DNA from: Arenicellales bacterium
GTDB lineage: Bacteria > Pseudomonadota > Gammaproteobacteria > Arenicellales > JAJDZL01
Direction of reading: 5' to 3'
Length of the DNA stretch: 64,000 nt
Assembly (NCBI GenBank): GCA_958295885.1
Contig: OY282380.1
Location: 3,224,001 to 3,288,000, forward strand
Position 1 is the first letter of the stretch. Each line of letters begins with the position of its first letter. A program made the position numbers and the translations under genes. The notes beneath the pieces are model-generated. The model was not told the DNA's origin, ran no database searches, and was given only the letters and a program-made list of their open reading frames with translations. This document shows, in pieces, positions 311 to 11,751 of the stretch.

Positions 311-1651
311 ATGATATTAAATGTAAGAATAAAGAATTTTGGCAAGCTAAAAAACGAAGAGGTTTGTATCAATAACTTCACTGTATTTGCTGGTCCAAAC
401 AACTCCGGAAAGAGTTTTGTATCTAAAATTCTTTATTCAATTATTAAAGCAATGAGAACCAATCATGCGCAGACATACCTTACTCATTTTCTGTCGCGTT
501 TTGACAAAGAATTGGAATTTATCATGTGGGAAGTAGAATTTGCACCCGTAGATTCGCATGAGAAAAAAGTAGTTGATGAAGTTAAAGAACTACGATCAAT
601 GATTAAAAAGTGTCCCTACAGAAATATGAATGAACTGACGAAATTCATAAAAATAATTTGCAATCGAATAGACAAAATTCTTCAATTGGTAAAAAAAATT
701 AATGTATCCGAGGAAAGTCGAATATTTAGTCATTGGGAATCGATTCTAATTAAATTGAGACGGAATCTCGAAAAACATGAGGTAAGCGACATAATTTCAC
801 TAGGAATGGAGATCGACCTTAATAAAAATTTGAAGGACAATTTCCAAGCAGCTAGAATCTCGCGGCTAGCGAATGACGAATCTTTACCAATTGAAATCAG
901 CATAGACAAAATTGGAATTTTCCGGTTTTTGAATGGGAACACTAGATCAGATTTACACAAATCTTGGCGGCAGCATGTGTTGCCGTTTTCAAGGCTGATC
1001 TATATGGAATCTCCAATTTACTGGAAGCTTAAGACTGCATTAGAAGAAATTCAACTCGTGCACAGCACCCTTTGGAGTGAGCGAAAACCCATAGTTGGAA
1101 TTCCACAATATTTTTACGATTTAGCCAGTGCATTACGTTATGAATATACTGGAGAAATTGCGTTTCCAGACTTGCACAAAAAGCTAACCAGTGAATCAGT
1201 CTTGGGAGGAAAGCTGGCGATTTCCAAGGACGGTAGATTGTCATTTCAAGAAAACGGTCGTAATTTCTCATTAATGCAAACAGCTACAGGAATTGCAAAT
1301 GTAGGATTTTTGGCTCTATTGATTGAACGCAAGCTTCTAGACAAAAACTCATTCATTTTCATTGATGAACCTGAGGCACACTTGCACCCAGCTTGGCAGG
1401 TGATTATGGCCGATACTCTTTTTGAGTTGGCGGAAAATGGCGTCCATGTTGTTATAGCAACACATAGTATTGACATTCTCAAGTGGTTGGAAGTGCATGC
1501 GAATAAAGATCCCGCCCGTAAAGAGCTTATCTCTTTAAACCAGTTTCCAACGACCGGTGGAATTGTCAATGACAATTTTGACGACGAGATTTCTGCAATA
1601 AAACAGGAATTGATTAAACCTTTCTCTGATTTGTATTTGGAAGGCTTGTGA
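311..1651 (+). CDS. AAA family ATPase (AAA_15/AAA_21, OLD-like SMC-type ATPase)
   Basis: The 446-residue protein has an SMC/ABC-like ATPase built from two ends. The N-terminus carries a Walker A motif GPNNSGKS (residues 28-35). Near residues 350-360 is the Walker B/signature segment FIDEPEAHLHP, followed by the His-switch THSIDIL at about 385-391. The middle (about 60-280) is a helical, charged insert without a recognisable domain and there is no TOPRIM domain. ATPases of this kind are common as sensor subunits in phage-defence and other accessory systems. The downstream gene overlaps by 4 nt (GTGA), so the two are probably translationally coupled. ATPase identity is firm; the biological role is inferred from architecture and the transposon-rich neighbourhood. 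Confidence 0.9.
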   Translation: MILNVRIKNFGKLKNEEVCINNFTVFAGPNNSGKSFVSKILYSIIKAMRTNHAQTYLTHFLSRFDKELEFIMWEVEFAPVDSHEKKVVDEVKELRSMIKKCPYRNMNELTKFIKIICNRIDKILQLVKKINVSEESRIFSHWESILIKLRRNLEKHEVSDIISLGMEIDLNKNLKDNFQAARISRLANDESLPIEISIDKIGIFRFLNGNTRSDLHKSWRQHVLPFSRLIYMESPIYWKLKTALEEIQLVHSTLWSERKPIVGIPQYFYDLASALRYEYTGEIAFPDLHKKLTSESVLGGKLAISKDGRLSFQENGRNFSLMQTATGIANVGFLALLIERKLLDKNSFIFIDEPEAHLHPAWQVIMADTLFELAENGVHVVIATHSIDILKWLEVHANKDPARKELISLNQFPTTGGIVNDNFDDEISAIKQELIKPFSDLYLEGL

Positions 1652-2208
1652 ACAGACTTTCTCGATATTTAGAACCTATCAAGGTTGCAGGTGAATCACT
1701 TGATGACAAATTTGAAGCCTACCGGATGGATAATCACGTAGGCGATAATCAGATGAGAAAAAATGTTGGATTGGGAACTTGTAGCTGCTGTGATTATTTC
1801 ACACTGAATAATCACTCAATATTTTTGATTGAAAAAACAAACCTTACAAAAACCATCAGGAACTATAAGGCTGAATTTGATTATTTACAAGATCATCAAA
1901 AGATTATAAAAATTATCTCTAAACTGATTAAACAGGAAAACTGGATGAAAGTGTATGGATCTATGCTTGTAATTTGCCGTTTGACTCTAAAGTGTAATCA
2001 ACTGAAGGATTTACTTAAAAATAAAAGCTACACATTCTTACTGGTATCGAGTGGTGATGACAAGCTTGAAGACCATATATTTTATGAATATTTAGTATCG
2101 TTCATCTCAAATGAGCTAAAGAGTCAGTTATCTCGCGAACTCGTAAAGGACGTTAAGATTGTGCCATCTGATATGTTTAATCAATTTCTCTCAAAGAACG
2201 AATTATAA
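1648..2208 (+). CDS. Hypothetical protein paired with the AAA ATPase; possible effector
   Basis: A 186-residue soluble protein starting at GTG inside the last codons of the ATPase gene (4-nt overlap). I do not recognise the family. An early Cys-rich segment (TCSCCDYF, about residues 48-55) is followed by a predicted beta strand and a charged turn (SIFLIEKTNL, about 61-70), then mostly helices. The strand-plus-E-x-K layout faintly recalls nuclease cores (where E-x-K follows an Asp), but that is only a hint; the Asp of CCD could supply the missing acid. Coupling to an OLD-like ATPase suggests an effector or adaptor. There is no signal peptide or membrane segment. Composition is AT-rich like the ATPase gene, suggesting the pair arrived together. 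Confidence 0.7.
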   Translation: MNRLSRYLEPIKVAGESLDDKFEAYRMDNHVGDNQMRKNVGLGTCSCCDYFTLNNHSIFLIEKTNLTKTIRNYKAEFDYLQDHQKIIKIISKLIKQENWMKVYGSMLVICRLTLKCNQLKDLLKNKSYTFLLVSSGDDKLEDHIFYEYLVSFISNELKSQLSRELVKDVKIVPSDMFNQFLSKNEL

Positions 2209-3699: not shown

Positions 3700-4442
3700 C
3701 TAGTATGGGTGTGCCACCGTATGAGCACCAGTGTGAGAGTGTCGAAACAGCTGCGTGTCGTTGCAATTGCGCGGGATGGTGGCCCATGATCGTCGACCTC
3801 CCAACTTGCAATGAGGTTTTGGGTGACTAACTAAGGTGCTTCCTACTTCTGCGCACAGCCCACGTCGATGGGTACCTAATACAGTGAATGGATTGAACGG
3901 GATGCTCAAGATCCTACCACCCAAAACGAAGCGGAATTTAAAACATGATCTTGATTGAAGAAAGTCAAACGATTGCCGTGAACGGCTGTTGGCGAAGAAT
4001 CCCAAGCAGTTTAGATATTCTAGCGGAAAATCAGACCGTAGCTTCTGCCCTCCTTACACAAAATTTGGAAAATCTCGCGCAATTTTTCGTTTAATCAAGA
4101 GTGATTCGCTATCTTTCGATTACCGCTCCCAAATTGTTTCAAAGTTAAGGTCTTGTGTGAGACTTTTCAATAGAATGGCGGAGAATAACGTAGAATCTTT
4201 GATTCCAACTGTCAAATCGTGAACTCGTTAAATTCCTAGCAAGGGGATTGAGTTGACAGATCTTGGCAAATCAACTTCAAATATGGTAGTAATGACTTAC
4301 TGACTAATTTCATTGGTAAATTCTTCGGTAATGTGAAGATTGTTTTGGGTACGCCCCCAATTGACTGGAATCAGTGCCGATTTTTTCTAGGCGAATTACC
4401 CATTCCATGAAATTTACTTTTGAGTAAATGAGGTGTTCAAAC
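3700..4442. other. Eroded intergenic stretch before the DprA-like gene
   Basis: Short open frames occur (for example 3989-4222 on the plus strand), but none resembles a known family. This may be the decayed C-terminal part of the HEPN-like gene. No RNA gene or repeat was recognised. A GAGG element at about 4430 serves as ribosome binding site for the next gene. Confidence 0.4.
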
Positions 4443-5456
4443 ATGAGCGAAAAACAGCATAGACAGTTGGCAGGTGTTCAAAGAAGTTTGCCGATTGCAG
4501 ATTTGAACCTTAGAGATCAGCCAACTGTTTACCATGGCAAAACCCCCGACGTTGAACGCTTGACTGCACTCTTTGTACTGAATTCAATAAGAGGGTTTGG
4601 GCCAGGCAAGTTTAAATTAATACACGAGCAAGGGTTATCACCTGAGAGTGTTCTGGATAATCCAGAAAGTTTGCCGGTGATTGGCAAAGTTGGAGAAAAA
4701 CTTCGATTGCTGCTGCAGTCTATTTCACCTGAAGATTCAAAATTATGCAGGGACCGTGCAATGCGGCAGTTGGATGCTGCCGAAAGATGTTCCGCATACA
4801 TACTTACATACGAGAGCAGATATTACCCAAAAACCGTATATGCGAGTAATCATTCCTTACCCGTTCTGTATGTCCGAGGAAATCCAGAATTTCTTAACAA
4901 TCAGGCTATCGCTGTCGTCGGGTCCAGATTGATCAGACCTCCATATTCAAACCGCGAGAAAGAATTTGTCCGCACTGCCTGCAGTTTGAAACAAAGCATT
5001 ACATCTGGATTCGCTTTAGGTGCCGACAAAATAGGGCATCAAACAGCCTTCGAAAATAATGGAATAACAATTTGTGTGATGCCATGTGGACTCAATCGTT
5101 TCTTCCCGCCTGAAAACAAACGACTTTGGGAGAAGTTTCTTAATTACGAAGGCGCAGTGTTCATAAGTGAATTCGCATTCGGAATGGGAACTTCATCTTT
5201 AAATCTTCGAAAGCGGAATAAGTTAATTGTGGCACTTTCGAGAGGTGTTTTAATCGCCCAATCTTCCAAAAGGGGCGGGTCGATGAACGCCTATCGTTTC
5301 GGAAAAGAGTTAAAAAGGCCAATTTCAACTTTTGAGGATGACAATTCAAATGACACAGCTGGAAATCGTGTAATTAAAGAATCTTCCGAGGCGAGAGTTT
5401 TTGCAACAGACCCTGCGTCGAGTTCGAGTTACGAGCAATGGATTCAGTCGCTATAG
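4443..5456 (+). CDS. DprA/Smf-like DNA-processing protein (accessory paralogue)
   Basis: A DprA-type Rossmann fold protein of about 337 residues. An N-terminal helical region (SIRGFGPGKFKLIHEQG) resembles the helix-hairpin-helix start of Smf proteins. The nucleotide-binding-like core has IAVVGSR, ITSGFALGADKIGHQTAFEN and a C-terminal SKRGGSMNAYRFGKELKRPI, the position where DprA has S.A.GGT. Canonical DprA has SGGA.GID; here SGFALGAD differs, which fits a divergent accessory subfamily rather than the transformation DprA. I prefer ATG 4443 over 4428 because GAGG sits nine bases upstream. The 3' end overlaps a HAD gene start by 19 nt, so the two formed an operon. DprA-like/HAD gene pairs are, to my recollection, seen in defence islands; this is not verified. 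Confidence 0.8.
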   Translation: MSEKQHRQLAGVQRSLPIADLNLRDQPTVYHGKTPDVERLTALFVLNSIRGFGPGKFKLIHEQGLSPESVLDNPESLPVIGKVGEKLRLLLQSISPEDSKLCRDRAMRQLDAAERCSAYILTYESRYYPKTVYASNHSLPVLYVRGNPEFLNNQAIAVVGSRLIRPPYSNREKEFVRTACSLKQSITSGFALGADKIGHQTAFENNGITICVMPCGLNRFFPPENKRLWEKFLNYEGAVFISEFAFGMGTSSLNLRKRNKLIVALSRGVLIAQSSKRGGSMNAYRFGKELKRPISTFEDDNSNDTAGNRVIKESSEARVFATDPASSSSYEQWIQSL

Positions 5457-5548
5457 TTTTCAATTTAGACGGTACGATATGGGATAGTTGGCCTTGGTAT
5501 GCACGAGTATTAGCAAACATTGCCAAATCTGATGAAACTCAACCCTAG
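5438..5548 (+). pseudogene. HAD-family hydrolase, truncated after 36 codons by an inserted element
   Basis: The frame starts at ATG 5438 inside the end of the dprA-like gene and reads MDSVAIVFNLDGTIWDSWPW, the start of a HAD phosphatase (motif I normally DxDGT). The first, nucleophilic Asp of motif I is Asn here (NLDGT), so even the intact gene may have lacked phosphatase activity. The frame ends at TAG within the left inverted repeat of the element at 5541-6016. Sequence after that element does not give a convincing continuation, with a TGA soon after the junction. Confidence 0.65.
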
Positions 5549-6016
5549 TTCCGCACTACTCAAAAAACAATTCTCCTAAAGCATTGATATCATGTTTTTT
5601 TTTGAAAATGACTGAATTGTACATGTAACAACATTTCGCGCCATTTTCTTTAGCTTCGTTTACCAGCGTTTTCGTTGCAATTCCGCCTTCATATTCAACG
5701 CCTGACCAGTAGGTAGACGCATCTGGGTATTGTTTTTTGTTGGTGTAGGAAACTACGGGTTTGATGAACATGATCTTAAAGTGCATTGTCAATGGGGTAA
5801 TTATAGAGGATTGTAGTGGCTGTTTGGAGGGCTGTATCACTGTACATGTAACAACATTAAGTTACTAGAGTTATAAAAGAAAAGATATTACTAATAAACA
5901 ATAATATTTGTAAGATATTAGAATATAAATACTACAAATAATGATTTATTAATAATATCTTCTAACAAATATATTTAATATGGTTGATTGAGCGGGAAAA
6001 GTGCGGAACTTGGGTT
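5541..6016. mobile_element. Small (476 bp) element with 17-bp inverted repeats, inserted in the HAD gene
   Basis: The left end AACCCTAGTTCCGCACT (5541-5557) and the reverse complement of the right end, AACCCAAGTTCCGCACT (6000-6016), match at 16 of 17 positions. AAATCTG lies just outside the right end (6017-6023) and again at 5525-5531, nine bases from the left repeat, a possible target duplication. Inside are one minus-strand ORF, two exact 18-bp copies of TGTACATGTAACAACATT (5618-5635 and 5841-5858) and a very AT-rich block (5860-5990). There is no transposase, so it would be non-autonomous. Confidence 0.6.
5556..5840 (-). CDS. Hypothetical protein inside the inverted-repeat element
   Basis: A 94-codon frame starting at GTG, or more likely at the internal ATG at 5786 giving about 76 residues (MHFKIMFIKPVVSYTNKKQY). 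I do not recognise it. The C-terminal two thirds look protein-like (YWSGVEYEGGIATKTLVNEA, then KENGAKCCYMYNSVIF), mixed alpha/beta without signal peptide or membrane helix. It lies between the two 18-bp direct repeats of the element, the downstream one lying within its coding sequence. It may be a passenger gene or chance ORF. Confidence 0.4.
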   Translation of the reverse strand: MIQPSKQPLQSSIITPLTMHFKIMFIKPVVSYTNKKQYPDASTYWSGVEYEGGIATKTLVNEAKENGAKCCYMYNSVIFKKKHDINALGELFFE

Positions 6017-6232
6017 AAATCTGCTCAATCGGAATCGAAGTGAGCTGGCTTTGCAGGTGCTCAGCGTGTCTCATGCGGAGAGGAACTTCGAACTTTGCTT
6101 GAATTGCGTAAAATATTAGAGAATTTTCTTCTTATTTTACTATTATCGGGATAATTATCGTTTATTAATCTTTATTAAATCAATAGGTTACAATTCTTCA
6201 ATCAGACACTAGATAATTCAGTCATACACTGA

Positions 6233-7318
6233 TTAGATTGTGATTGCCCCACCAAATAGTCCAACGCTGGGTGAACTGCTACCGGGAATCCAACGAAATG
6301 TTACATGTCCACCGGAGTAAATTGACGTGTCAAATTTCACTCCCGCAGACTTGATCTGTTTGAGAATCTGTGAATTGTATCTTCTCTTTTTTGGGATCGT
6401 CTTTGTGCTTGTTAAATAGCACTTACTACAAAGTCGACGCAATCGATTCAAGTCACTTTCCCTCGGAAGACGGTGGCCTCCCCTAGTCCACGGTGTAACT
6501 ACTGCTTGTAATGACTGATCAAGCATTTCAATCCACACATCGTCGTTGTGTGCGTTGTATGATCCATGATGTGGAACTTTGAATAAATGGGAGCGTGGTG
6601 CTTTTCCTTTACGAGAATCAACTACCGCTTGCCAACCCTTTTTTGGATCACTTACTTGTTCCAAATCTGCACCTAACAAGACACCTTGTTGCCCAACTGT
6701 TAAAAGCATCGCTACTGAAAGATCATTACGTGACGGTTCAACTATTCTACCTTTGGGAAGCCCCTTAATGATTTCTGGAAAATGCTTCAACCGTGTCAGA
6801 AAATCTGAGAACTGTTGACCGGAAGGGGAAAGTGCCCGTAGTTCCACTTGCCGCCGGTGCGCCAGTGTTTTAGGGTGGAAATCGAAAATTAACGTATCTT
6901 CACTTAAAGGTTTAATTGAGCGACCAGTCTCTTTAACAATCTTCAAACAATTCAAAAGTTCTGTTCCTCCCCGATCAAGCTTTTGAACGGGCTGATCTTC
7001 AAAAACCTGAAGAAATGCAAGAAATTCCAAATACGTTAAAGCTGCACCAAGCGAAAGTCTTGCGTTGCGACATGTAGCCACTGTCTTCGCCAGCCCCTTG
7101 ATATGATCATCATGCCAGTGAGATGCACTGACTGAAATTACAGAATCTTCAATCGAAATACCAAGTTTCGTCAGATAGGAAATCGATGCTGGTTCGCCCG
7201 CATCATCAAGCCATGAGTCGATAATTACCCATTTGCCAGAACCAATATGAATAACAATGCACTCACCATACCCAGGTCCAAAAACAGTAACCTCAATTTC
7301 ATCCGCCCTCGGAATCAT
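6233..7318 (-). CDS. MBL-fold metallohydrolase (ComEC/Rec2-type), third gene of a three-gene operon
   Basis: A 361-residue metallo-beta-lactamase-fold protein. It has the zinc-binding motif H-W-H-D-D-H (SASHWHDDHIKGL, about residues 64-76), a second metal Asp in LLGADLE (about 214-220), and KVPHHGSYNAHN (about 245-256), the usual late histidine motif of ComEC-like MBL domains. There are no membrane segments, so it is a soluble stand-alone MBL nuclease/hydrolase rather than a DNA uptake channel. Its start lies 20 nt inside the preceding gene, which in turn overlaps the first gene by 4 nt, so the three are made together. Such stand-alone MBL proteins occur in several accessory and defence gene sets; substrate unknown. 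Confidence 0.85.
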   Translation of the reverse strand: MIPRADEIEVTVFGPGYGECIVIHIGSGKWVIIDSWLDDAGEPASISYLTKLGISIEDSVISVSASHWHDDHIKGLAKTVATCRNARLSLGAALTYLEFLAFLQVFEDQPVQKLDRGGTELLNCLKIVKETGRSIKPLSEDTLIFDFHPKTLAHRRQVELRALSPSGQQFSDFLTRLKHFPEIIKGLPKGRIVEPSRNDLSVAMLLTVGQQGVLLGADLEQVSDPKKGWQAVVDSRKGKAPRSHLFKVPHHGSYNAHNDDVWIEMLDQSLQAVVTPWTRGGHRLPRESDLNRLRRLCSKCYLTSTKTIPKKRRYNSQILKQIKSAGVKFDTSIYSGGHVTFRWIPGSSSPSVGLFGGAITI

Positions 7319-7934
7319 CCCAAACTACTTCATCTAAGAGTGCCTTTGCTTTATTCAACGCTCGGTCATAGTCTGCTTTTGTATGAATAGGGAGTTGCCG
7401 AAAATGAATTTCCGATACTTTGCGAATTTGCCCATTTGACAATCGCTCTCGTCCAATAACCCATCGTATTATTGCGCCTTCCTTGAGATATTGACGGTCG
7501 TATTCACTGATATCGTCTTTAGAAATTATTGCTTGATCAGTTGGAAGAGACACTTTTGATCGAACATCAACCATCTTTACGCAAAATTCTTCTTCACTTA
7601 TACTCTCAACATATCCTTCCCATTCAGCTGTGGGTGTCATTGTACGAGTCCACTTAGGATGCATGTGACTGAAATCAATAGGCGGCACAATGTCTTTAAG
7701 TCTTGTGCTTTCTTCGATTGAATCAGTCATGTTAAATTGAGCTGCAGTTTCATTTGACGGGAAACCGACAAATTCGGTTGTAGGTAAATTTTTTAAATGG
7801 TGTTTTTCTTTGAGAGTTCCTCTAATATTTTCTTTCACCAATTTCTCTAGGAAATCATCCGGCTGTTGTTGGGATCCAAGACGAGAAGATGCAACTCTCT
7901 GTTCGAAATCTAAACTTGAAGCGAGGTTTTTCAT
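7299..7934 (-). CDS. Hypothetical protein with a C-terminal small beta-barrel-like domain, second gene of MBL operon
   Basis: A 211-residue protein. The first about 95 residues are low-complexity, charged and probably disordered. Residues about 100-190 (WEGYVESISEEEFCVKMVDV, then IISKDDISEYDRQYLKEGAI, IRWVIGRERLSNGQIRKVSE, IHFRQLP) have the alternating-strand pattern of a small barrel that could bind nucleic acid or protein. I recall similar unnamed proteins beside MBL genes but have no family name. ATG overlaps the upstream stop (ATGA), and the 3' end overlaps the MBL gene by 20 nt. It is most likely an adaptor within the operon. Confidence 0.7.
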   Translation of the reverse strand: MKNLASSLDFEQRVASSRLGSQQQPDDFLEKLVKENIRGTLKEKHHLKNLPTTEFVGFPSNETAAQFNMTDSIEESTRLKDIVPPIDFSHMHPKWTRTMTPTAEWEGYVESISEEEFCVKMVDVRSKVSLPTDQAIISKDDISEYDRQYLKEGAIIRWVIGRERLSNGQIRKVSEIHFRQLPIHTKADYDRALNKAKALLDEVVWDDSEGG

Positions 7935-8626
7935 TGTTTCTTTCCCTCTTCCTTTATTATGTTGAAAATAGTCTCCGCTTCTCCCAAAGTCGGTTCAAAC
8001 TGTTCCGCTAATAGAGACATTGCCTCTTCACTTCCATAACCATCCGATAAATCTTCTATTGAGTGGTGGGCATTGACACGCATGTAGACACCTGTACCAT
8101 CTGAAATTTTCGATGAAGGTTCTATAGTGACGTTAGTTTCAAAATTATTGCCACGAACTATTGATTTTCGCTTCATCGTTAAACTCTGAAGTCCACCGGT
8201 TAAATTTCTTTGCTCGACATCCATATCTTGTCCAAATTTACCCCAAGGCTCAACTGGAGCCAAAGTTCGACCAAGTCGAACTCGTGCAGTCCAGCTTGAT
8301 AGCCTGAAATGCACCTCTTTGTTAATTCCAAACGCAGTAATTGGGGTGTGGTTAAGATGTTCGCGAAAAATTTTAGTCGTGATATCCAAAATTTTTACCC
8401 ACGGAGCGGTGGAGGTAGCAAGTTGAAAACGATCAGTTTGTACGAGATAGGAGCGAGTTTCGATTGAGAATCGGGCAAAGTCTCGAAGTGTAATGAGGTC
8501 CCCAGTAAATTCAGAATTTATTTGTTCAATGCTATTACTATGAAGCCAAGCGGGATGAAATATCGCAGGATTAAACTGTCCGATTAATACGATCGAGCAA
8601 GCTGAAATTTCAGGTTGAAATATCAT
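7931..8626 (-). CDS. Hypothetical protein, first gene of MBL operon (TIGR04255-like pattern, tentative)
   Basis: A 231-residue soluble protein with alternating strands and helices. Segments such as FSIETRSYLVQTDRFQLATS and WVKILDITTKIFREHL.NHTP..AFGINKEVHF resemble the layout of TIGR04255-type proteins (sporadic, often in accessory islands), but the likeness is weak and from memory. No catalytic motif is evident. It opens a tightly packed operon with 4- and 20-nt overlaps, implying a single functional unit with the barrel protein and the MBL hydrolase. Confidence 0.65.
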   Translation of the reverse strand: MIFQPEISACSIVLIGQFNPAIFHPAWLHSNSIEQINSEFTGDLITLRDFARFSIETRSYLVQTDRFQLATSTAPWVKILDITTKIFREHLNHTPITAFGINKEVHFRLSSWTARVRLGRTLAPVEPWGKFGQDMDVEQRNLTGGLQSLTMKRKSIVRGNNFETNVTIEPSSKISDGTGVYMRVNAHHSIEDLSDGYGSEEAMSLLAEQFEPTLGEAETIFNIIKEEGKKQ

Positions 8627-8853
8627 TGGCGAGAGGCTAGTGCTAATATGACCGATTCAACTGCAGATTTTACGTTTTTGTTAACACTTCGTAATGACCT
8701 CAATATGAACGAAAACTGAACTACTAAATATATCAAAAGTCATAGATTTGCTTATACCAAAAAAAATAAATCTGACTGTTTTTTGTCGAATTCTGTGAAT
8801 CTAGTCCTCAAGTATGCACTTTTTTGAATCGGAAAAAAACACTAACGCTAAGA

Positions 8854-8961
8854 TTACTCAGCACTTCTGCAATCGAGAAACACTCCAATTTTTTTTCGCA
8901 ATACGTTGATACAGGTTACCCCTTGCATCAAGGTCTGCCCGTTTAAAATCCTGATGTGCAT
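8854..8961 (-). CDS. Small ORF (35 residues) with a strong Shine-Dalgarno
   Basis: AAAGGAGATGAAATAATG at 8959-8976 (minus strand) places a near-perfect Shine-Dalgarno seven to eight bases before ATG. The product, starting MHIRILNGQTLMQGVTCINV, ends at TAA 8854. It is not recognised. It could be a surviving start of a gene cut short, or a small protein. Neighbouring sequence up to the insertion sequence (about 9204) shows no other clear gene. Confidence 0.35.
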   Translation of the reverse strand: MHIRILNGQTLMQGVTCINVLRKKIGVFLDCRSAE

Positions 8962-9204: not shown

Positions 9205-11751
9205 TAGTCTGCAGACAGCGGGCGCGAGGTGTTGCCATGGTGTGATTCGGCACCACGGAAAAGCACAGTCTGTCAGGCGCTTGGCTGGGCAATGGCATTA
9301 ACATAGGATAAGTGTATTTGCAGTTTTTTGTAGAGATGGCAACAGATTGATATGGCGGGCAAATCGAGGGATGTAAAAAAATTGCACATCCGCATTTGAC
9401 TTTCTTGTGCAGTACTGTCAAAATAGAGGTAAGGATCATTTTGTCAGGAGATCAGCGGTGGATGAGCGCATTAAGAAGTTGAAGTCAACGACATTTTTCG
9501 GTCATCGTTTGACCCGCAGACAGTTGGGTGAGATTCAACAGACAGTTTCGCTGTTTGAGAATTTGAGTCGGACTGAGCTGGCGCAGACGATCAGTGAGCA
9601 TTTAGGCTGGCACACATCAAAGGGTGTCAATCGCTACCAGTCAGCGCTGCTGCTGCTGGAGGAACTGGAACAATTGGGCGTTGTGCAGCTGCCGCCGAAG
9701 CAGTCGCATCTTAAGCGCGGCAAGAGCAGGCCGCTGGCGCTGACGGCGCGCACCGAAGAACAGGCGGAGCTGCAGGCGGAGCTGTCGGAGCTGATGCCGC
9801 TTTCTGTGCAGCTGGTGACTTCTGCGGATCAGGCAGGGGAATTCAACGAATGGGTGGAGCGTTATCATTATCTGGGATACCGGCATCCGATCGGGGCGAA
9901 CCTGCGTTATTTCATCGTTGACGGTCAGGGTCGCAAACTGGGCTGTTTGTTGTTTCAGTATGCAGTCAAGGCGCTGCCGTGTCGGGATGTGTGGGTTGGC
10001 TGGCAGGATCAGAAACACAAGAAACATCTGCACTTGGCGGTCAACAACAGTCGGTTTCTGATCTTTCCGTGGGTGCGGGTGAAAAATCTCGCTTCCAAGG
10101 CCTTGTCGCTGGTGTGTCGGCAGCTGCCGCAGGACTGGCAGTGCCAACATGGCTGTCGGCCGGTGCTGATTGAGACGTTTGTGGATGAGACGCGCTTTGA
10201 GGCAAGCAGTTATCGGGCGGCCAACTGGCAGTATCTGGGCACCACCGAGAAGCGTTCCGGAAAAACCCCTAAAGGTGTCTATGTGTATCCTTTGGAAGAA
10301 GGTTTTCGAGAGATTTTAGCGCACGGTGAAAAGGCTCGTGCGAAGCGCAAAAAACGCGCGCAGGCAGCAATGCCGAAGCCGCTGGCGAGTTCGGATTCAT
10401 TCGTGCAGCTGTGGCAGCATCTGATCGGCGAAATCTCGGAAGTAGCGGCGGAATTTGATGAAAAGTGGCGGGTTCGGCGGCGAGTGATCGACACGATGTT
10501 GTTGATGCTGTTCATCTTTCGGCTGGTGTTTTCTGACAATCGACAGGGTTATGCCACCTGTTTGTACGAATTATGGGCGCAGTGCCGCGACTTGGAGATC
10601 CGCCTGCCACAGCCACAGCCGGTCACTGCGGCCGCCATGAGCCGGGCGCGCGCCAAGCTGGATGAGCAGGTCTTCAAGGTTCTGCAGCAGCGCATTCTGC
10701 AGCGCTCCGAAGCGCAGCGAAAGGACTTTCTGTGGCAGGGACATCGTCTGCATGCGGTTGACGGCAGCCGGCTCAACCTGCCGCGGAAACTGCTTAAAAA
10801 CGGTTATCGCACGCCCAATGACAAGGCGCATTATCCACAGGGACTTGTGAGCTGCCTGTATCAGCTCAAGGCGCGCGTTCCAATTGACTTTGAGCTGGCA
10901 TCGCATGGCAATGAACGAAAGCTTGCGCTGACGCATCTGAAGCAGCTGGACGAAAACGACGTCGTGGTCTATGACCGCGGTTATTACAGCTACGAGATGC
11001 TGCATGCGCACTGGCTGCAAGGTGTGGAGGCAGTCTTCCGACTGCAGAAAAACCTGACCGTGGCGATGGACCGGTTCATGGACTCAGAGCGCACCGATGA
11101 GATCATCGAGGTTGAGCCAACCGCGCAAATCCGGACTCGCATCCGTCGCCGCCATGCGCAGGTGAAATGTCCGCCGCTGAAACTGCGACTGGTGAAATAC
11201 ACCCATGCCGACACCACCTACACGCTCGCGGTCACTTTGCAGGATCCAGTGCGCTATCCCATCTCGGACCTGTCTGATCTGTACCATCAAAGATGGGGCA
11301 TCGAGGAGATGTACAAGATTTCCAAATCCTGGCTGAGCATCGAGCAGTTTCATGCCAAATCAGAACGTGGCGTCAAACAGGAACTGTATGCGCACTTTGT
11401 GCTGATCACGCTCACGCGAATCTTCACCAACTACAGTGAAGATCGAATCCAGGGCGCGCCCGAAGAAGACAGAAAACAGGTGAATTTCAAGCATGCGCTG
11501 AAGGTGATGGCCCGCAGTCTGGAACAGCTGGTGCTGCGACAGGCAGAACTGATTGCTTCTACGGTCAATGCCATCGTCAGCAGCATCAGCAGGCAACGTC
11601 AGAAACAACGTCCTGATCGTTCCTATGCGCGCCAATCGAAACAGCCGCGAAACAAATGGATTCGTAAACGAAATCAACCTCAGGAATCGACGAACCAGTA
11701 GCATAAAGTAACATATTTCAATGAAAACAGTCGTCCGCGAGGTGCGTACTA
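9205..11751 (+). mobile_element. Insertion sequence carrying a DruA-DDE fusion transposase
   Basis: The transposase gene is intact and much more GC-rich than its flanks, suggesting recent arrival. The likely ends are TAGTCTGCAGACAGCGGGCG (from 9205) and, on the other strand, TAGTACGCACCTCGCGGACG (from 11751), which match at 13 of 20 positions. A target duplication was not identified, so the exact ends are provisional. The element sits next to an IS1595-type relic at its right side. Confidence 0.6.
9407..11701 (+). CDS. Transposase: N-terminal DruA-like (DUF4338) domain fused to IS4-type DDE domain
   Basis: 764 residues in one frame. Residues about 20-320 match the DUF4338/DruA pattern: an N-terminal helical part (TRRQLGEIQQTVSLFENLSR), then WVERYHYLGYRHPIGANLRY, LGCLLFQYAVKALPCRDVWV, NNSRFLIFPWV and RPVLIETFVDETRFEASSYR. 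After a basic linker (RAKRKKRAQ) the rest is an IS4-like transposase with the DDE triad in HAVDGSRLNL (D about 449), VVYDRGYYSYE (D about 522) and YHQRWGIEEMYKISKS (E about 631), the YREK-like block of IS4. DruA is also a component of the Druantia defence system, but here no other Druantia gene is present. GTG and ATG alternatives near 9407-9460 mean the exact start is uncertain; the ATG at 9407 lacks a good ribosome site and the GTG at 9460 is a reasonable alternative. Confidence 0.85.
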   Translation: MQYCQNRGKDHFVRRSAVDERIKKLKSTTFFGHRLTRRQLGEIQQTVSLFENLSRTELAQTISEHLGWHTSKGVNRYQSALLLLEELEQLGVVQLPPKQSHLKRGKSRPLALTARTEEQAELQAELSELMPLSVQLVTSADQAGEFNEWVERYHYLGYRHPIGANLRYFIVDGQGRKLGCLLFQYAVKALPCRDVWVGWQDQKHKKHLHLAVNNSRFLIFPWVRVKNLASKALSLVCRQLPQDWQCQHGCRPVLIETFVDETRFEASSYRAANWQYLGTTEKRSGKTPKGVYVYPLEEGFREILAHGEKARAKRKKRAQAAMPKPLASSDSFVQLWQHLIGEISEVAAEFDEKWRVRRRVIDTMLLMLFIFRLVFSDNRQGYATCLYELWAQCRDLEIRLPQPQPVTAAAMSRARAKLDEQVFKVLQQRILQRSEAQRKDFLWQGHRLHAVDGSRLNLPRKLLKNGYRTPNDKAHYPQGLVSCLYQLKARVPIDFELASHGNERKLALTHLKQLDENDVVVYDRGYYSYEMLHAHWLQGVEAVFRLQKNLTVAMDRFMDSERTDEIIEVEPTAQIRTRIRRRHAQVKCPPLKLRLVKYTHADTTYTLAVTLQDPVRYPISDLSDLYHQRWGIEEMYKISKSWLSIEQFHAKSERGVKQELYAHFVLITLTRIFTNYSEDRIQGAPEEDRKQVNFKHALKVMARSLEQLVLRQAELIASTVNAIVSSISRQRQKQRPDRSYARQSKQPRNKWIRKRNQPQESTNQ

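Follow-up and report, generated by a model that had tools for sequence, protein, structure and literature searches.

Introduction

The ComEC-like MBL-fold proteins of defence systems are DNases, present as pro-nucleases that are freed by a protease partner (PMC12799240). Gated MBL nuclease–protease pairs of this kind comprise HamM of Hachiman, the Avs1a-type and LmuA-type proteins, RTasMBL of DRT and canu/CanC (PMC12799240). The locus reported here was found in a 64 000-nucleotide stretch of DNA from an Arenicellales bacterium, which is referred to throughout as the window. It shares with the gated pairs a ComEC-like MBL that has defence partners, is placed in defence islands and lies near transposases; however, neither a protease of the trypsin or caspase type nor an NTPase, reverse transcriptase or SMC protein is encoded with it. 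In place of such partners, the MBL is accompanied by two proteins of no named family, P1 and P2, and the gene order is always P1-P2-MBL. As far as the searched libraries show, the trio was previously unnamed, and it is most likely anti-phage. A search for the trio in the literature full text, with the newer defence catalogues and supplements lying outside its reach, found no description of it. The MBL protein is currently annotated simply as a hydrolase.

Organization of the trio and its surroundings

The preliminary description of this DNA proposed a three-gene overlapping operon, and three minus-strand open reading frames with overlaps of 4 nt (7931–7934) and 20 nt (7299–7318) are indeed present. 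The window features relevant to the analysis are:

7931..8626, minus strand: gene 1 (P1), 231 aa, ATG start, intact; first protein of the trio
7299..7934, minus strand: gene 2 (P2), 211 aa, ATG start, intact; shares 4 nt with gene 1
6233..7318, minus strand: gene 3 (MBL), 361 aa, ATG start, intact; shares 20 nt with gene 2
6202..8956, minus strand: duplicated block, the trio and its non-coding flanks (∼330 nt upstream, ∼30 nt downstream)
8627..8956, minus strand: upstream non-coding region, 76–96% identical per 50 nt between both copies
4428..5456, plus strand: DprA-family gene, ShosA-like by profile match (ShosTA defence system); outside the trio
311..1651, plus strand: AAA_15/OLD-like ATPase, 446 aa (PADLOC HEC-02A, AriA-like); outside the trio
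1648..2208, plus strand: 186-aa ORF overlapping the ATPase gene by 4 nt, with no Pfam or PADLOC match

This arrangement of the trio is not due to chance, because the same reading frames and overlaps are present at a second site in the genome, and the same order, strand and coupling are seen in 79 loci. The upstream region (8627..8956) is presumably promoter or regulatory DNA; a search of it for a strong sigma-70 site found none.

All three trio frames are intact, as had been noted before. The accompanying remark that the accessory genes nearby are broken was only partly right, since the ATPase gene and the DprA/ShosA-like gene both have long open frames with matches to their respective families. 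In profile searches the DprA-family protein matched ShosA at 8e-44 and PsyrA at 2e-25, and the ATPase matched the PADLOC models for HEC-02A and AriA at 3e-35 and 2e-24 respectively. ShosA and PsyrA belong to DprA-type defence/toxin–antitoxin systems. The ShosA-like gene and the OLD-like ATPase place the window trio in a defence-island setting. The ATPase gene and the 186-aa ORF (window 311–2208, plus strand) resemble an unnamed two-gene ATPase defence pair.

At E ≤ 1e-10, the 136 proteins nearest to the trio matched 93 PADLOC families, among them HmaB/HmaC, PbeA, DUF1156/DUF499, BrxH, SngC, AbiEi and several methyltransferases. A control set of equal size (136 genes), drawn at random from ten gammaproteobacterial genomes, matched 41 families, mostly through helicase- and cysteine-desulfurase-type models. 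The support given by this enrichment is modest, because families and not proteins were counted and the control is taxonomically narrower.

Genes for DruA (DUF4338)–DDE transposases are located divergently upstream of both trio copies in this genome, at window 9407–11701 (plus strand) and at 4713–7064 (minus strand) of the second locus (L016). The DruA domain is N-terminal in both transposases, the one in L016 being split over two ORFs, and the two proteins display only 33% identity.

Conservation of the three genes as a unit

Scanning the genome collection with an MBL alignment gave 80 loci, or 86 together with the window and earlier matches (L029 repeats L012). Genes for P1 and P2 are found upstream of the MBL gene and on the same strand in 79 of the 86, which corresponds to 79 of the 80 loci with enough upstream sequence. 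Six of the seven exceptions are contig ends with less than ∼650 nt upstream of the MBL gene (L031, L039, L041, L067, L093 and L095), and in L045 only a fragment of P2 is left there. The P1 or MBL frames are shortened in L025, L026, L070 and L087, consistent with either decay or assembly errors. With starts chosen by rule, P1 and P2 are typically spaced by −4 nt, and MBL follows P2 at about −4 to −41 nt.

In order to counter the bias of a search that starts from the MBL, an independent P1-first search was made in 398 genomes of the phylum. P1 was found in four genomes besides that of the window, and in all four it is followed by P2 and MBL. On viral contigs, the trio is present at six of seven P1 matches. 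Weakly scoring MBL relatives (E 1e-15 to 1e-21) have neither P1 nor P2 alongside, and so mark the limit of the trio MBL family. Moreover, the pairwise distances of P1, P2 and MBL across 71 loci are correlated (r = 0.85–0.86, reached in 0 of 999 permutations), which indicates that the three proteins travel together. A conserved fourth gene was sought around the trio and none was found, the largest cluster of neighbours being represented at 7 of 80 loci. The initial proposal of a single unnamed system made up of the three proteins is thus upheld from both starting points; the neighbourhood survey around the MBL gene shows the trio co-occurring, and the lack of conservation that was to count against the proposal was not seen.

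The MBL protein

The H-x-H-x-D-H metal site recognized in the preliminary description is intact in the MBL protein (H67-W-H69-D-D71-H72). Residues H67, H69, D71, H72, E120, N198, D218, K247, H250 and H251 are invariant in all 72 sequences compared. The HxHxDH motif is thus accompanied by the downstream Asp and His metal ligands (D218 and H251), as expected of the MBL-fold superfamily.

The best match to a solved structure is the ComEC/Rec2 nuclease domain (PDB 9ic4; E 7.7e-11). Residue N198 is at the ComEC-type Asn position, and the LLGADLE...KVPHHGS motifs align. The trio MBL differs from ComEC, however, in being a stand-alone, soluble protein with no membrane channel, in having the canonical HxHxDH motif where ComEC has an HPDADH-type motif, and in its extra inter-motif sequence and invariant E120. 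As judged from its sequence, the protein is a soluble ComEC-like MBL-fold hydrolase and a probable nuclease. Weaker matches to the MBL profile in the same genomes are separate frames of 755–862 aa, which is ComEC length, and the trio genomes appear to have a separate ComEC. The trio MBL does not belong to a known housekeeping family, given its presence in ∼1% of genomes and its distinctness from the co-resident ComEC.

Among known defence systems, the PADLOC RTasMBL and LmuA models match 71 of the 72 trio MBLs, distantly, and the Avs1a model matches 30 of the 72. The window MBL is likewise distant from known defence MBLs (E ∼1e-7), a similarity that does not fix its substrate. In PADLOC-DB 2023 the MBL is the only window trio protein to find matches, all distant, and P1 and P2 match no model. 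Membership of Lamassu, DRT, Avs, 6A-MBL or M48 was rejected on the weak scores of the MBL and the missing partners. The MBL protein of the anti-phage 6A-MBL system (NF058524) shares the MBL fold and gives a weak local match over residues 195–264 (21.3 bits against a curated cut-off of 220); neither P1 nor P2 has an NCBIfam match. A protease beside the MBL was also sought: no fourth gene is conserved there, and neither P1 nor P2 matches a protease family.

P1 and P2

The structural model of P1 (pLDDT 94, pTM 0.90) comprises two beta-alpha-beta3-alpha repeats, and the fold is confidently predicted to be a duplicated alpha/beta one. The motifs GxFNPxIFxPxW and TPIxAxGIN are found one at the start of each repeat. 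Residues G16, N19, P20, P25, W27, D81, P95, G100, N102, P124, W128, N185 and H187 are invariant or near-invariant. Across 62 relatives, P1 has no Pfam or NCBIfam family. A known fold from solved structures was discarded as an assignment, the best candidate being a weak resemblance to AdoMetDC (TM ∼0.32). Comparison of the P1 model with an unnamed viral protein gave TM values of 0.58–0.65.

For P2, the barrel proposed at the outset is retained and resembles OB/cold-shock folds in the model; a predicted disordered tail is added to the earlier picture. In the AF2 model the N-terminal region (residues ∼1–95) is variable and of low confidence, and residues 99–203 form a five-stranded barrel with pLDDT above 90. 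The mean identity of relatives to the window protein is 13% over the N-terminal half compared with 34% over the barrel. Foldseek returned mostly OB/S1/cold-shock folds, with matches to Lys-tRNA synthetase, exosome Csl4, Lin28, RPA and Rim1; several of these have a probability of 0.94–1.0 but E values of 0.005–0.15, and TM scores over the whole model are low. The models predict, then, a P2 that combines a disordered tail with an OB/cold-shock-like barrel. No Pfam match was found in 68 relatives of P2, and the window protein has no NCBIfam match. Hints of CoiA and HEPN (E 0.03) were not repeated in the 68 relatives and were set aside.

Copies, relics and mobility

The window belongs to a genome of 4.42 Mb in a single contig (C1), which carries a second complete trio at C1:4311196–4313586. 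The two trios are 90–93% identical and have identical overlaps. Window positions 6202–8956 align with C1:4310870–4313620 at 92.8% identity, and the homology stops sharply on both sides. The dN/dS ratio between the two copies is 0.29 (Fisher p = 7e-12), or 0.50, 0.30 and 0.20 for P1, P2 and MBL respectively, and both copies have therefore diverged under purifying selection. The same genome contains a third, more distant trio (35–48% identity) that is decayed (L017, C1:1165040–1166108), and the remains of another P2 gene, interrupted by four stops (L018, C1:3440898–3441140). These relics of other trio lineages point to repeated gain and loss. A search of the genus found P2 in none of its five other species.

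The MBL tree covers 16 named phyla, and Bacteroidota, represented by an Adhaeribacter plasmid, brings the number to at least 17. There are 29 changes of phylum on the tree, compared with a minimum of 15; loci do group by phylum, but with many departures from a complete grouping. The majority of trio loci come from MAGs, and single placements in the tree are uncertain because many loci are MAG bins. Prevalence is ∼1% of genomes, with 5 of 398 in the phylum of the window. In addition to the Adhaeribacter plasmid, the trio is carried by a conjugative Pantoea plasmid, where it is flanked by tyrosine recombinases, and relatives are found on 24 viral contigs.

Trio copies in Escherichia coli prophages

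An IMG/VR relative leads to E. coli strains SX45 and Ec-U1 (100% identity; 2 of 5426 genomes), and a second E. coli type of trio is present in ECOR29, RM10466, F5 and others. In all five E. coli regions the trio is the sole cargo of a lambdoid prophage at this site and is reversed, with the antiterminator Q gene on one side and the holin/lysis genes on the other; HMM searches confirmed the trio in the four regions of the five that are distinct. The Q–holin slot of other prophages contains a TIGR04255 gene with two hypothetical genes, an unnamed cassette (L168 3718–5445, E. coli MSHS 133), or a DUF262 protein (NsnA 6e-45, PD-T4-2_A 5e-27) with a gene for a HEPN-like nuclease. These varied contents identify the slot as an interchangeable cargo site for defence-like genes. 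A search of phage isolate records for the E. coli-type MBL gave no match. Two further Q–holin cassettes in E. coli prophages (L170 3091–5462 and L171 4136–5155) are uncharacterised, have the same reversed orientation and give no PADLOC match.

Proposed function of the trio

Phage defence is the best-supported candidate use for the trio. On balance, we think it probable that the three genes constitute a self-contained, horizontally mobile anti-phage (or anti-mobile-element) module, in which an MBL nuclease would be the effector and P1 and P2 would provide sensing and holding. The effector would be the ComEC-like MBL-fold nuclease encoded by gene 3. The OB/cold-shock-like barrel encoded by gene 2 may bind nucleic acid or a nucleic-acid–protein complex, with its flexible tail holding the nuclease, and the unclassified duplicated alpha/beta protein encoded by gene 1 may be the sensor or specificity subunit; we infer a sensor role for P1 and an adaptor role for P2. 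The three proteins, made in tight translational coupling, would assemble into a complex that keeps the nuclease inactive. Binding of an infection cue by the P1–P2 complex would then free or activate the MBL, with no protease involved, and DNA would be degraded.

The tight operon, with two partners preceding a predicted toxic enzyme, is also what would be expected of a toxin–antitoxin or addiction module in which P1 and/or P2 restrain a toxic MBL nuclease, and which persists by stabilising plasmids and prophages and not by sensing phage. Plasmid and prophage carriage, and the presence of decayed beside intact copies within one genome, agree with this explanation. However, three obligatory, co-diverging components of 200–360 aa, with strongly conserved residues in P1, are more than an antitoxin usually needs, addiction would be cancelled by a second, near-identical intact copy in the same genome, and defence-type cargo sites are preferred; we consider addiction unlikely.

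Another explanation looks to the enzyme. The ComEC-type MBL domain is a DNA-uptake nuclease, and RNases and further hydrolases likewise have MBL folds; both facts would suit a prophage or plasmid accessory function that is not directed against phage, such as host fitness or the processing of DNA or RNA that enters the cell, in which the MBL would act as a regulated nuclease or phosphodiesterase. Yet chromosomal copies have restriction–modification, ShosA-like, Hma, AbiE and Shango genes as neighbours more often than random genes do, and in the neighbour clusters, where no fourth gene is conserved, competence genes do not co-occur; such a function is distinctly unlikely. Occurrence in many phyla and purifying selection could similarly be those of a widespread housekeeping operon for metabolism or repair, but this is highly improbable for a trio that is found in only ∼1% of genomes, is missing from the rest of the genus (five species), has a phylum-discordant tree, exists as duplicated and decayed copies and is carried by prophages and plasmids.

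If the defence explanation is true, the trio is a compact and widely shared immune module whose effector is of a known kind and whose control parts are new. The P1 and P2 families, which have no Pfam or NCBIfam entry, recur jointly across 17 or more phyla as well as in E. coli prophages. The intact E. coli prophage copies (for example in ECOR29) make laboratory testing straightforward.

P1 and the TIGR04255 family

P1 had been described as TIGR04255-like, after a family of sporadic distribution, and this was not borne out: none of 62 relatives matches TIGR04255 at E ≤ 0.01 or at the curated cut-off. The two true TIGR04255 genes of the genome are located elsewhere, away from the trio. Family membership of P1 was ruled out by model search, and a first profile comparison gave a probability of 0.5%. 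Comparison with a 38-sequence TIGR04255 profile gave a weak, full-length and co-linear match over 213 columns (pairwise P 1e-3, probability 19–27%), and a remote relation between P1 and TIGR04255 is possible. The two families are similar in length, and a TIGR04255 trio occupies the same E. coli prophage slot; the motifs GxFNPxIFxPxW and TPIxAxGIN of P1 are, however, foreign to TIGR04255.

One viral contig (L152 5971–8010) carries a gene for a P1-like protein of 220 aa; the next gene overlaps it by 4 nt and encodes a 295-aa protein with an NWDGYGA-type motif, and a gene for a 183-aa protein comes after that. The 295-aa protein is in place of P2 and MBL, and L152 could be a second type of system that uses the P1 family. 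The NWDGYGA-type motif is present beside TIGR04255 genes at four loci, with one match at 5e-8, and was found neither in the trio loci (1.1 Mb) nor in random regions (0.4 Mb). This single locus, L152, gives a hint that P1 and TIGR04255 can replace each other as the first component. A tentative extension, which we hold to be somewhat doubtful, is that the trio represents a new defence type, in which an MBL nuclease would be activated without proteolysis by an OB-fold nucleic-acid sensor (P2) together with a new sensor family (P1), and that P1 and TIGR04255 would be branches of one modular sensor superfamily with varied effectors. If the defence explanation holds, the trio could also provide the first lead to the function of TIGR04255 proteins. 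Genes with the pattern N-W-D-[GS]-x-[GN]-A adjoin TIGR04255 at L181 2220–2708, L190 947–1561, L192 2249–2827 and L194 996–1547, suggesting a common TIGR04255 partner family.
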